Shown: one piece after another, positions 10,073 through 15,429 of the stretch
Position numbering within the stretch: position 1 is the first letter of the stretch
Layout: every line of letters starts with the position of its first letter
Assembly (NCBI GenBank): GCA_030145325.1
Contig: JAQYVW010000033.1
Span: 1-33,381 of the forward strand
DNA: 33,381 bases
From: Desulfurivibrionaceae bacterium
Lineage (GTDB): Bacteria > Desulfobacterota > Desulfobulbia > Desulfobulbales > UBA5123
Direction: 5' to 3'
Notes under the pieces: generated by a model
What the model saw: the letters and a program-made list of their open reading frames with translations, nothing else
Told to the model about the DNA's origin: nothing
Databases searched by the model: none
Made by a program: the position numbers and the translations under genes

Positions 10073-11995
10073 CTACGCCTTACGTTCGCGCAGGATACGC
10101 TTATCACCCACCCGAATGGTGAGTTTTATCTTGTCGAAATACTCAAGGAGCGGGATAGAAAATTTCCGGGTCAGGCCGGTCATCCCCTTAAAGCTCTGGG
10201 CATCAAGTTCACCACCTCCTCGACAAAATTCACGTACCTGCTCAGCCAAGGCATCGAGAGTGGCGGCATGGAAATAAAGATCCTCGTTAATCTTGAGCAC
10301 TGATTTATCTCGCACCAGCAAGGCCAGCATCTCACGAACCCGCGCCTGGGGCAAGGAATCAAAACGGCTGACCACCTCTTTGAGGGTGGGCGGTTTCAGG
10401 CCCGCATCAGCATACAGTTGCTCCATATCCCGCCGCAGGGATTCCTCGTCTTCCTTGAAGGAAACCTGATGATCGGCCAACCGCACTTCCGCATCGGCCT
10501 GGACAATCCGACCCGATTTGACCAGATCGTTGAGGAGCACCTGGAAAAGACGTTGATCCAGCCCTCGTTGCAACTGAAAACGCAACTCTTCCTTGGCCAA
10601 ACCACTCTGCATGGGGTTTTCAGTATGATAGGCGGTAAGGATGGCCACCACCTTGTCGGTGAGGCTTAAGAACACGCTCTCTTCAACCATCCGTTGTTTA
10701 TCGGATTCCACCACCATGATTTTTCGGGCGGAGAGAGGGCCGCTCAACAACTTCTTAAGCCGTTTGCCGAAGAGTCCCAACCGTACCGCCAGTTCATCAA
10801 AGGTAAGACCGGCAAAGCCGCTTTCCCGAATATGCAGTTGCGCCAACTCTTCCTGCCCGCCCTCTAGAAAGATCTTGAAGGCAGCACCGTTTTCGGGCCG
10901 AAAACGACGACGCTTCCGCAGAGAAACTCCGTTCAGCACCGCCCCGCCGCCGATGGTATAAACCGGCGAATAACTTCGCACCACGTAACGGTCTCCCGGC
11001 CAAGCGGTCACCGGTTCTTCCAGGAGCAACTGAACATTGCAGGTGGAACCGGGCAACGCCTCCTCATCATCAAGGAGGACAACCCGTCCCATCACCTCAG
11101 CAGTGCCAAGATGAACACGAACCCGAGCCCGGTTCTTAAATGGTTTCTTATTGCCGGAGAGATAAAGAAATTCAGCATCCAACATGTAGGAAGGATGCAG
11201 AGAACCCGGCGTGGCCAGCATATCACCGCGTCCGATCAACTCTTTGTCAATGCCCTGCACATTGATGGCGGTACGATGCCCAGCCTCAACCTCCTCAACA
11301 TCGTTGCTATGGACCTGAATGCCCCTGATTTTACCCGCCAGCTCTTGGGGATAGATCACCACCTCATCCCCCACTGCGATGCGACCAGAGATGGAAGTGC
11401 CGGTGACCACCGCCCCGAACCCCTTCATGGTGAAGATACGATCCACCGGCAAGCGGAACGGCCCGTGCGCTTCAGCAAGTTCGCTCTTGCTCACCAGCCG
11501 GTCAAGTTCAGCCCGCACCGCCTCGATCCCTTCTCCAGTGGTGGCGGAAACCGCAAACATGGGGGCTTTTTCAAGGAAACTGTCGGCAAGAAACTGCCGA
11601 ACATCGTCTTGCACCAGCTCCAGCCATTCAGCATCCACCATATCCTTCTTGGTGATCACCACCAACCCCTGTTGCACCCCCAGCAGCTTACAGATCTCGA
11701 AATGCTCACGGGTCTGAGGCATCACCCCTTCATCGGCGGCTATCACAAAGGCCACCAAATCAATCCCGGCGGCACCGGCCACCATATTCTTGACGAATCG
11801 CTCATGACCGGGAACATCGATGATCCCCAAACGGTGCCCGCAGGGGAGGTCAAGATGGGCAAAACCAAGCTCAATGGTAATCCCTCGCGCCTTCTCCTCT
11901 TTCAGGCGATCGGTATCGATACCGGTGAGGGCGCGAACCAGGCTGGTCTTGCCATGATCGACATGGCCTGCTGTTCCTAAGACTACTTCACGCAT
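10073..11995 (-). CDS. selB: selenocysteine-specific elongation factor SelB
   Basis: 640 aa. The protein is a translational GTPase with G1 GHVDHGKT (residues 10-17), G3 DVPGHE and G4 TKKD, EF-Tu-like beta-barrel domains, and a long C-terminal region expected to form the winged-helix modules that bind the SECIS hairpin of selenoprotein mRNAs. Length and order fit bacterial SelB. It delivers Sec-tRNA(Sec) to in-frame UGA codons, so the organism should make selenoproteins; selA, selD, selC and a UGA-containing selenoprotein gene were not found in the window. The ATG is six bases after the stop of the MBL-fold gene, whose TGGTGGTGA end doubles as the ribosome-binding site, suggesting translational coupling. 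Confidence 0.96.
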
Positions 11996-12001
11996 CCGAA
12001 A

Positions 12002-12646
12002 TCACCACCAGCCACCTTTAAGGAACGGATTAGAGGCTTTTTCCTCACCAATGGTAGACTGCGCGCCACCATAGCCATGGCCGGGCCAGACCACCGTCTT
12101 GGGGGGCAGAGTAAGGAGCCGCTCGGTAATGGAGGTATACAGTTGCTTGGAATCGCCGCCGGGGAAATCAGTGCGGCCAACCCCGCCGACAAAGAGGGTA
12201 TCACCGGCATAAAGATTTGCCTGGCCGTCATACAGACAGATACCGCCAGGCGTATGCCCAGGGGTATGAATAATCTCCATGGTCACGGAACCGATCTCAA
12301 GCTTATCGCCGTGCCGCACCTTAAGATCAGCCGGGGGAGAGAAAGCCAGCCCCAACATGGAAAAGTACTCCACGGTTTTGGGCTCGGCAAAGTAGGCGTC
12401 GTCTTCTTCATGCATCACAATTTGCGCGCCGGTGGCCTGCTTGATGCGCAGGTTGCCGCAGACATGATCGGGATGGCCGTGGGTGGCGACGATATACTCC
12501 AGAGTCACCCCCTCCTCGGCACAGAGCGCGAGGATCTTGTCCTCATCGCCGCCGGGATCGATGATTAACCCTTTTTTTGTTTCCGGGCAGGCCACCAGGT
12601 AACAGCACACCCCCATCATCCCCACCGTGATCTGTCTGATAATCAT
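12002..12646 (-). CDS. MBL-fold metallo-hydrolase (glyoxalase II-like)
   Basis: 214 aa. The metallo-beta-lactamase fold is shown by THGHPDH (residues 55-61), a later HTPGHTPGG, YAGDTLF and PGHGYG, which together supply the His/Asp ligands of a dinuclear metal site. The family includes hydroxyacylglutathione hydrolases and related thioesterases; the exact substrate is not readable, so I give no symbol. The ATG at 12646 has GAGGAAAACC in front; upstream in-frame GTG (12661) and ATG (12658) precede that ribosome site and are less likely. A strong hairpin separates it from mrp, but it is tightly coupled to selB downstream. No signal peptide, so it is cytoplasmic. Confidence 0.88.
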   Translation of the reverse strand: MIIRQITVGMMGVCCYLVACPETKKGLIIDPGGDEDKILALCAEEGVTLEYIVATHGHPDHVCGNLRIKQATGAQIVMHEEDDAYFAEPKTVEYFSMLGLAFSPPADLKVRHGDKLEIGSVTMEIIHTPGHTPGGICLYDGQANLYAGDTLFVGGVGRTDFPGGDSKQLYTSITERLLTLPPKTVVWPGHGYGGAQSTIGEEKASNPFLKGGWW

Positions 12647-12664
12647 GGTTTTCCTCATCACTCA

Positions 12665-12708: not shown

Positions 12709-13656
12709 TCAACAATCGCAGGTATCGGGGTTACAAACCCCACCGGCGCAGCCACAACTGGAAGCCATCTCCAGGGTTGGCTTCTCAGACATGGACTTCT
12801 CAATCCGATTGACCAGTTCCTTGAAAGCGGTAATCGCCGGGCTATCACTGTCGGAAGCGAGATAGGGTTGGCCGTCATCACCACCCATAACCACCTTGGG
12901 ATCCAAGGGAATCTTACCGAGAAAGGGCACCGCAAAATCCTGGGCGGTCTGCTCACCACCACCACTCTTGAATATCTCCACGGTGTTGCTGCAATGGGGA
13001 CAGACTAACCCGCTCATATTCTCCACCAAGCCGACCACGTTCATGCTGACGTGTTTACAGAAATTCAAAGACTTGCGCACATCGGCCAAAGCCACTTCCT
13101 GAGGGGTGGTAACCACCAGGGCATGGGCGTCCTTGATGGTGGAAGAAACGGTCAGCGGTTCGTCACCGGTGCCGGGAGGGGCATCGATAATCAGATAATC
13201 CAACTCACCCCAATCCATATCGGAGATAAATTGACGAATGGCCTGAATCTTCAAAGGGCCGCGCCAAATAATGGGATCGTCCCGGTTCTCCATCAAGTAT
13301 TCAAGGGAGATTACCTTAAGGTTGTCGTTGTATTGCATGGGCGGCAACAGCTGGTTCTTACTCTGACGATCAGGAATCTTATCGGTGAGGTTGAGCATCC
13401 GGCAGATGTCCGGGCCATGCAGATCCACATCCATCAGTCCTACCTTGTGACCACGACTGGCCAACCCCAAAGCGAGATTGGTGGAAACGGTACTTTTACC
13501 AACTCCGCCCTTACCGCTCATCACCAAGATCTTGTTCTTGATCTTACCCAGCGAAGTAGTGATAGCCACTTCCTGCTGCGCGATGGAAGCATCTGCGGAT
13601 CCGCAAGATGAACCACCTTGTTTACTGCCGCAAGAACCACTGCTGCAATTACCCAT
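12709..13656 (-). CDS. mrp: Mrp/NBP35-family P-loop ATPase, Fe-S cluster carrier
   Basis: 315 aa. The deviant Walker A GKGGVGKST is at residues 48-56, followed by MDVDLHGP, the DAPPGTGDE motif and a central CPHC that in this family binds a shared Fe-S cluster at the dimer interface. The N-terminus is Cys/Gly/Ser-rich with Cys at 4, 9 and 18, and the C-terminus ends in another Cys cluster (CGCAGG-CN-DTCDC). N-terminal Cys motifs of this kind occur in NBP35-type members. The likely role is loading Fe-S clusters onto apoproteins, relevant to an anaerobe rich in Fe-S enzymes. ATG at 13656 has GAGG ten bases upstream; the frame upstream is not Mrp-like. It has its own promoter, operator-like repeat and leader hairpin. 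Confidence 0.93.
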   Translation of the reverse strand: MGNCSSGSCGSKQGGSSCGSADASIAQQEVAITTSLGKIKNKILVMSGKGGVGKSTVSTNLALGLASRGHKVGLMDVDLHGPDICRMLNLTDKIPDRQSKNQLLPPMQYNDNLKVISLEYLMENRDDPIIWRGPLKIQAIRQFISDMDWGELDYLIIDAPPGTGDEPLTVSSTIKDAHALVVTTPQEVALADVRKSLNFCKHVSMNVVGLVENMSGLVCPHCSNTVEIFKSGGGEQTAQDFAVPFLGKIPLDPKVVMGGDDGQPYLASDSDSPAITAFKELVNRIEKSMSEKPTLEMASSCGCAGGVCNPDTCDC

Positions 13657-13670
13657 ATCCGTAAACCTCA

Positions 13671-13706
13671 AAAAAAAATGAAAGCCACGTCTGAAAAGCA
13701 CGCGGC
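13671..13706 (-). terminator. leader hairpin with nine-T tract upstream of mrp
   Basis: On the minus strand a 7-bp stem GCCGCGT/ACGTGGC (13700-13706 with 13684-13690, one G-U pair) and a nine-base loop are followed by TTTCA and eight more T. The T run abuts GAGG, the mrp Shine-Dalgarno. It can act as the terminator for the cyclophilin unit, or as an attenuator for mrp because a promoter lies upstream of it. Confidence 0.7.
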
Positions 13707-13724
13707 AAAATCTTAAAACTCTAC

Positions 13725-13746
13725 AATTTCACCAAAAGCTGAAATT
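13725..13746 (-). promoter_or_regulatory. operator-like inverted repeat at mrp start site
   Basis: Perfect 7-8-7 inverted repeat AATTTCA-N8-TGAAATT. It overlaps the downstream half of the -10 box and spans the predicted start of transcription, the usual place for a repressor to block initiation. The regulator is unknown; a Rrf2/IscR-type or iron-responsive repressor would make sense for an Fe-S carrier, but that is inference. Confidence 0.5.
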
Positions 13747-13771
13747 ATAATGTACCCACGGTCATTTGCAA
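13744..13771 (-). promoter_or_regulatory. sigma70-type promoter for mrp
   Basis: On the minus strand TTGCAA (13766-13771), a 16-base spacer and a perfect TATAAT (13744-13749). The predicted start is near 13737, giving an ~80-base leader that contains the hairpin at 13671-13706. Confidence 0.6.
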
Positions 13772-13801
13772 GGTAAAACCATGGCGCAACGGACGGTGAA
13801 C

Positions 13802-14344
13802 TTAGATCAACGAGGGCCGCAGCTTGTCACCGAAAGCGCCTTCCAGCATCTCATTCCAGACCACCAGCTTATCCTTACACTGGTCAAGGAGGGAAGCAGT
13901 GTCACCCTTAATGGTGACCGTTTTCATCTCATCACCCTGAACGATGCTATTAACCACCTCCATATCCTCGTCACCAACCACCTCGCCAAATACCGCATGC
14001 TTGCCATCCAACCAAGCCGTGGGCACATGGGTGATAAAAAACTGGCTCCCGTTGGTGCCTGGACCGGCATTGGCCATGGAGAGCACTCCGGGTTTATCAT
14101 GACGCAGCGCATCGACGAATTCATCATCGAAACGATAGCCCGGCTCACCGGTCCCAGTGCCGAGGGGGCAACCGCCTTGCACCATAAAATCAGGGATCAC
14201 CCGATGGAACTTGATCCCATCATAAAAACCGCGTCCGGCAAGGTTCACAAAATTAGCAACCGTAAAGGGAACCTGATCTGCAAAAAGACGAAGGCGGATA
14301 ACACCTTTATTGGTTTCTACTTCCGCAATCAATTCATTGCCCAT
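13802..14344 (-). CDS. cyclophilin-type peptidyl-prolyl isomerase
   Basis: 180 aa. The cyclophilin core is shown by [15 protein letters not shown] with the catalytic Arg, [16 protein letters not shown] and KHAVFGEV. It catalyses cis-trans isomerisation of X-Pro bonds during protein folding. No signal peptide precedes the domain, so it is the cytoplasmic form (PpiB-like). The start is firm: AAGGAG seven bases before ATG at 14344. It is a single-gene unit with a good promoter and a ~125-base structured leader upstream, and a hairpin/T-tract downstream. Confidence 0.94.
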
Positions 14345-15111: not shown

Positions 15112-15429
15112 TCATTGCTCTTCCACAAAGCCGATGGCCGAATCCAACTCATGAAGAAAGGCAAACCCTTGCCCTTTCTCCTTCAACCTGGCGGTCTTTA
15201 CCACCGCCGCCATCACTTTTTCAGACTCTTCCTGCTTGGTGACAATATAGATGATCTCTTTCTCGGGCCTGATCAGAAGCCCCATCAGACCCAACCGCTC
15301 CCGCACCCCGGTGCCACGACCAAAAGAAATGGTGGCACCCTGGGCGCCAGCAGCCATTGCCGCCTCCACAACCTTGTCCGCCTTACCCCGCTGCACGATG
15401 CAGGTAATCAACTTCGGGTTAGCGCTCAT
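15112..15429 (-). CDS. PII-like (P-II family) nitrogen regulator-type protein
   Basis: 105 aa, the size of a PII monomer. It has the ferredoxin-like PII pattern (LITCIVQRGKADKVVEAA, GATISFGRGTGVRERLG in place of the T-loop, EKEIIYIVT). The T-loop region lacks the uridylylated Tyr context of GlnB/GlnK, so this belongs to the divergent PII-like branch, which in related bacteria often accompanies a membrane protein (for example DUF1538). It probably binds a nucleotide and reports to the adjacent membrane protein; the ligand is not inferable. AAGGAG is nine bases before ATG at 15429. glnA, amtB and canonical glnK are not nearby. Confidence 0.85.
   Translation of the reverse strand: MSANPKLITCIVQRGKADKVVEAAMAAGAQGATISFGRGTGVRERLGLMGLLIRPEKEIIYIVTKQEESEKVMAAVVKTARLKEKGQGFAFLHELDSAIGFVEEQ

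Follow-up and report, generated by a model that had tools for sequence, protein, structure and literature searches.

The DNA analysed here (the window) is a stretch of 33,381 nucleotides from a Desulfurivibrionaceae bacterium (contig JAQYVW010000033.1), and its minus strand carries mrp, the gene for a 315-aa Fe-S carrier of the Mrp/NBP35 type. The translation contains the deviant Walker A motif GKGGVGKST of NUBPL-type P-loop NTPases and a CXXC motif in the form CPHC, and matches to mrp, mostly clear orthologues, were found in 58 of 58 related genomes. The protein resembles MrpORP of Desulfovibrio vulgaris in being an Mrp/NBP35 carrier in a sulfate reducer (PMC6345978). It differs in scoring 384.8 bits with the MrpORP model (NCBIfam NF041136), below the cut-off of 450. 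The MrpORP gene belongs to the orp operons, which have a sigma54-dependent promoter, and its product bears a second domain (PMC6345978). Every element listed before mrp in a preliminary description of the window is held by the 145 nt between mrp and the isomerase gene upstream of it. The features are as follows.

12002-12661: a metallo-beta-lactamase-fold gene, preceded by a hairpin that lies 3' of mrp
12709-13656, minus strand: mrp (PF10609, E 4e-98)
13666-13669, minus strand: Shine-Dalgarno sequence GAGG, adjoining the T-run and 9 nt from the ATG (13656-13654)
13670-13678, minus strand: run of nine T, after TTTCA, specific to the window
13684-13706, minus strand: leader hairpin, GCCGCGT (13706-13700) pairing with ACGTGGC (13690-13684)
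13725-13746, minus strand: candidate operator, the dyad AATTTCA-gcttttgg-TGAAATT, with perfect 7-bp arms and an 8-nt spacer
13749-13744, minus strand: -10 sequence TATAAT, as read from the sequence
13771-13766, minus strand: -35 sequence TTGCAA, with a 16-nt spacer to the -10
13744-13755, minus strand: block GTACATTATAAT, containing the TATAAT and invariant in three congeners
13765-13778, minus strand: block TTTTACCTTGCAAA, containing the TTGCAA and invariant in three congeners
13802-14344, minus strand: cyclophilin-type isomerase gene, next upstream of mrp

The leader hairpin has a 7-bp stem with one G-U pair and a 9-nt loop, and UUUCAUUUUUUUUU lies directly 3' of it. The dyad lies over the predicted start site and overlaps the -10 sequence, the AAT being common to both. 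A few nucleotides past the mrp stop codon there is a strong hairpin (12703-12673, minus strand, z -4.4); at the equivalent place in the congener G002 a hairpin of like design is found with its bases changed, and this 3' hairpin seems better conserved than the one before mrp. Two open reading frames upstream of mrp, at 15112-15429 on the minus strand, lies the gene for a small P-II-like protein, described as near the selB gene cluster, which is found downstream at 10073-11995.

The preliminary description had placed a TTGCAA/TATAAT promoter, a palindrome, and a hairpin with a T-tract in front of mrp, and all of these are present on the minus strand as described. Promoter-like pairs numbered 4 in a 3.5-kb region and 3.4 +/- 2.1 in its shuffles, and a consensus match alone is therefore no proof of a promoter. 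The window of 33 kb contains 33 perfect 7-bp dyads with spacers of 0-12 nt, about one per kb, and approximately 5% of shuffled 145-nt leaders also contain one. The window leader folds with a z of -1.4, and 19 of 200 shuffles fold equally well. Since each element alone is near the level of chance, the decision must come from relatives.

Three congeners were compared, namely the window, G002 and G001 (whose leader was taken from a contig end); G001 and G002 are closely related, so that the genus footprint represents in effect two lineages. All three are identical at 16 of 16 positions of the -35 block GGTTTTACCTTGCAAA and at 27 of 29 in the block formed by the -10 and the dyad, compared with 4 of 10 in the spacer and 7 of 20 in the stretch that follows. 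Fourfold codon sites of mrp agree between the window and G002 at only 62 of 134 positions, so the background is strongly diverged. Conservation extends beyond the -10 to about +14, and two possible -10 registers, TATAAT and an overlapping TACATT, are both invariant in the genus.

Leaders of mrp were then compared more widely (n=108). An unsupervised search recovered a gap-free element of approximately 40 bp, TTTTTGCTTTTCAAA-N7-CGGCATTAnnGTA(TA), in about 60-70 of the 108, mostly 83-262 nt ahead of the start codon; about one third of the leaders are without a site. The G113 assembly has near-identical mrp loci and promoters on two contigs (L212 and L233), perhaps from two strains in one bin. 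As read from the alignments, conservation is highest at TTGC and at T-A....T, with 16-17 nt between the two, which is the pattern expected of -35 and -10 elements. The likeness to sigma70-type promoters thus consists of two hexamer-like boxes at a spacing within 16-18 nt, with T, A and T the most conserved positions of the -10. The element departs from such promoters in having TTGCnTTT or TTGCAA as its -35 in place of TTGACA, and in being conserved past the hexamers and linked to one gene.

The specificity of the element for mrp was assessed with a sequence-only profile of 38 sites from which the window was left out. In most genomes tested the top site was the mrp leader and the remaining sites were far weaker, and mrp lay within 1.5 kb of 35 of the 36 profile sites examined. 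Many of the scanned genomes had contributed training sites, and the strength of the mrp matches is thus partly by construction; the scarcity of other sites is not. A match at E <= 0.05 was obtained in 121 of 194 genomes of the order, a count in which not every match was checked and about 10 are expected by chance. When other orders of the phylum were scanned, 8 of 148 genomes matched; four of these lie outside the order, and their matches are not at mrp. The core TTGC(T/A)TTT(T/C) was present in 23 of 52 mrp upstream regions and in 2 of 178 others (antisense counts in this survey are mrp sites seen from the divergent neighbour). The near-single-site genome scans and the 2 in 178 led us to reject a generic promoter of these genomes. 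The motif can also be read as the C-terminus of an upstream protein (AFQ.tGI.V*), a reading that was rejected: the frames are short and show no relationship further upstream, one of them is interrupted by a stop, and the terminal stop codon varies. Literature searches brought up no account of these elements.

The profile built without the window did not detect the window's own site. The block TTTTACCTTGCAAA is identical at 12 of 14 positions to TTTTGCCTTTCAAA, and GTACATTATAAT at 9 of 11 to TTACAGTATAA, both taken from another family. Together the two blocks give 21 identities in 25 at a spacing one base shorter, a score reached by none of 5000 shuffles and with a lead of 4 over the next best place in the window; the blocks had been hand-picked from one family before scoring, and the spacer range was widened to 9-11 nt after the data had been looked at. 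We regard the window promoter as a diverged homologue of the order-wide mrp element, a reading that needs a one-base change in spacing. In the homologous register the -10 falls at TACATT (13754-13749), within GTACATTATAAT and five bases upstream of TATAAT.

The promoter proposed before mrp is thus supported by conservation both in the genus and across the order, and mrp most likely has a conserved sigma70-type promoter of its own under gene-specific constraint. On the strength of these comparisons, the region is probably the local form of an old, mrp-specific element of the Desulfobulbales. That element has a -35-like box, TTGC(T/A/C)TTT, and at a distance of 16-17 nt a -10-like box, TAnnGT(ATA); in the window genus it would have drifted to TTTTACCTTGCAAA-N9-GTACATTATAAT, one base closer. 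RNA polymerase would be expected to start near 13737 or, with the ancestral register, approximately 5 nt further upstream, and the conservation beyond the hexamers may reflect a gene-specific regulator.

The dyad had been described as an operator. Its core, ATTTCA-N8-TGAAAT, stands, with all six inner pairs kept in the three congeners; the outermost pair does not, being broken in G001 and G002, where two spacer positions are also changed, and the dyad was not found in mrp leaders beyond the genus. The suggested genome search for the 22-bp palindrome yielded a single exact copy in 3.36 Mb and no set of genes, the near matches lying mostly within genes. A near copy does occur upstream of tsaD in G001 and G002 (L225 and L252), in G002 between tsaD and a divergent moaA-like gene. 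A palindrome regulon was rejected, as this pair of sites was not seen in the window genome and the other near matches are mostly intragenic. The pattern is compatible with an operator, and also with the first transcribed bases being important to the promoter; the dyad may plausibly be an operator at the level of the genus.

The strongest competitor to an mrp-specific element is an ordinary constitutive promoter. On this account there would be no dedicated regulator, and the dyad would have arisen by chance from an AT-rich -10 together with a conserved early transcribed sequence. The frequency of such dyads, about one per kb of the window, agrees with this account, as do the broken outer pair in two congeners and the lack of a regulon. 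It sits less easily with conservation that runs on beyond the -10, as far as about +14, in a strongly diverged background, or with an order-wide element that is almost exclusive to mrp and not generic, and we consider it possible but distinctly the less probable account.

A second competitor arises from nifU, which has an order-wide element of its own, TTGC(T/A)TTTTg-N-GCAAAAAATTATGnT. The core TTG(C/A)NTTT is present in 25 of 30 nifU upstream regions, and the nifU profile matched in held-out genomes, with E 1e-8 in the window genome (G000) and E 1e-7 in G001. The site in the window genome lies 86-128 nt upstream of nifU and is conserved across the order.

G000 C26:45349-45391 (L355 / L363), minus strand: nifU element CTGTTGCTTTTTGAGTGTCAAAAAATTATCTTG

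The mrp and nifU elements have TTGC(T/A)TTTT and TAnnnT in common. The nifU site of the family f13 is similar to the mrp form, and in three f13 genomes the mrp profile found a weak site ahead of nifU (E 0.02-0.035, a range in which about 10 chance matches are expected over 194 genomes). In approximately 10 genomes of the family f12 a site of the mrp type precedes a CbpA-like gene with a J-domain and DnaJ_C (L232, L235-L240, L314-L316 and L318). A common regulator or sigma specificity reading TTGC(T/A)TTTT-N-TAnnnT might therefore serve mrp, nifU and, in f12, the CbpA-like gene as an Fe-S biogenesis regulon of the Desulfobulbales. Both the nifU results and the CbpA sites point that way, as does the rarity of the core elsewhere. 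Against it, hardly more than one gene per genome is found by either profile, as would also be expected of separate promoters specific to each gene; the part in common is short, the mrp-profile matches at nifU are weak and the comparisons were picked after the data had been seen. We judge such a regulon unlikely. A little less likely again is its fuller form, in which a so far unrecognised Fe-S-biogenesis regulator or sigma specificity acts at mrp, nifU and the CbpA-like gene of one family, and the mrp site of the window genus has drifted and acquired an overlapping dyad operator. The presence of nifU, an Fe-S scaffold gene, among the few genes with similar promoters is the only pointer to iron or cluster control.

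The hairpin and T-tract had been proposed as an attenuator, and the window arrangement, a hairpin followed by a U-run before the gene, does resemble attenuators of the intrinsic-terminator type. It differs in that both parts are unconserved, and no conserved alternative antiterminator fold was noted. The hairpins of the congeners are unrelated in sequence: the window has GCCGCGT/ACGTGGC, and the stems of G002 and G001 are centred on GGCCGTTG/CAACGGCC and GGCCGCC/GGCGGTC, respectively. The congener leaders fold with z values of -1.1 to -1.8. The run of nine T is absent from G001 and G002, in which the Shine-Dalgarno sequence is GGAGG. Since the T-run and the hairpin sequence are both missing before orthologous mrp genes, those of the congeners included, the proposal fails the conservation check that the preliminary description itself had set. 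Leader hairpins were rejected as a feature of the class, since 107 mrp leaders show ordinary folding with a mean z of -0.31, and Rfam gave no match at the gathering score and one at chance level (E 0.54). At least six T in eight are found between about -35 and -15 in 72% of the 108 mrp leaders; together with the ordinary folding, this favours reading the T-run as a translation leader rich in U. The region before the gene would then comprise a variable leader stem and a U-rich leader for ribosome binding of the kind that mrp usually has, and in the window the two might form a species-specific weak terminator.

The scheme of the preliminary description, a promoter, repressor operator and terminator-type attenuator in series that give mrp separate controls of initiation and of read-through, with iron or cluster status as a possible signal, can draw on the presence of all the parts in order, the conserved dyad core, the UUUCAUUUUUUUUU directly after the hairpin and some stem at that place in each congener, but the window-only T-run, the unrelated hairpins, the slight folding of mrp leaders and a palindrome not enriched in the genome so as to mark genes make it very improbable.

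What looks in one genome like a striking stack of motifs can thus resolve into one conserved part, here the mrp promoter, and two uncertain ones. The broader result is a conserved, putative promoter element linked to mrp in the order, which has its counterpart in concept in the IscR-controlled promoters of Fe-S biogenesis (PMC4618611, PMC6599224), where a gene-specific control region is likewise found at Fe-S biogenesis genes. The regulation of Fe-S carriers in strict anaerobes has been little studied, and the mrp-linked element, together with the related element at nifU, provides a bait sequence with which the regulator may be found.
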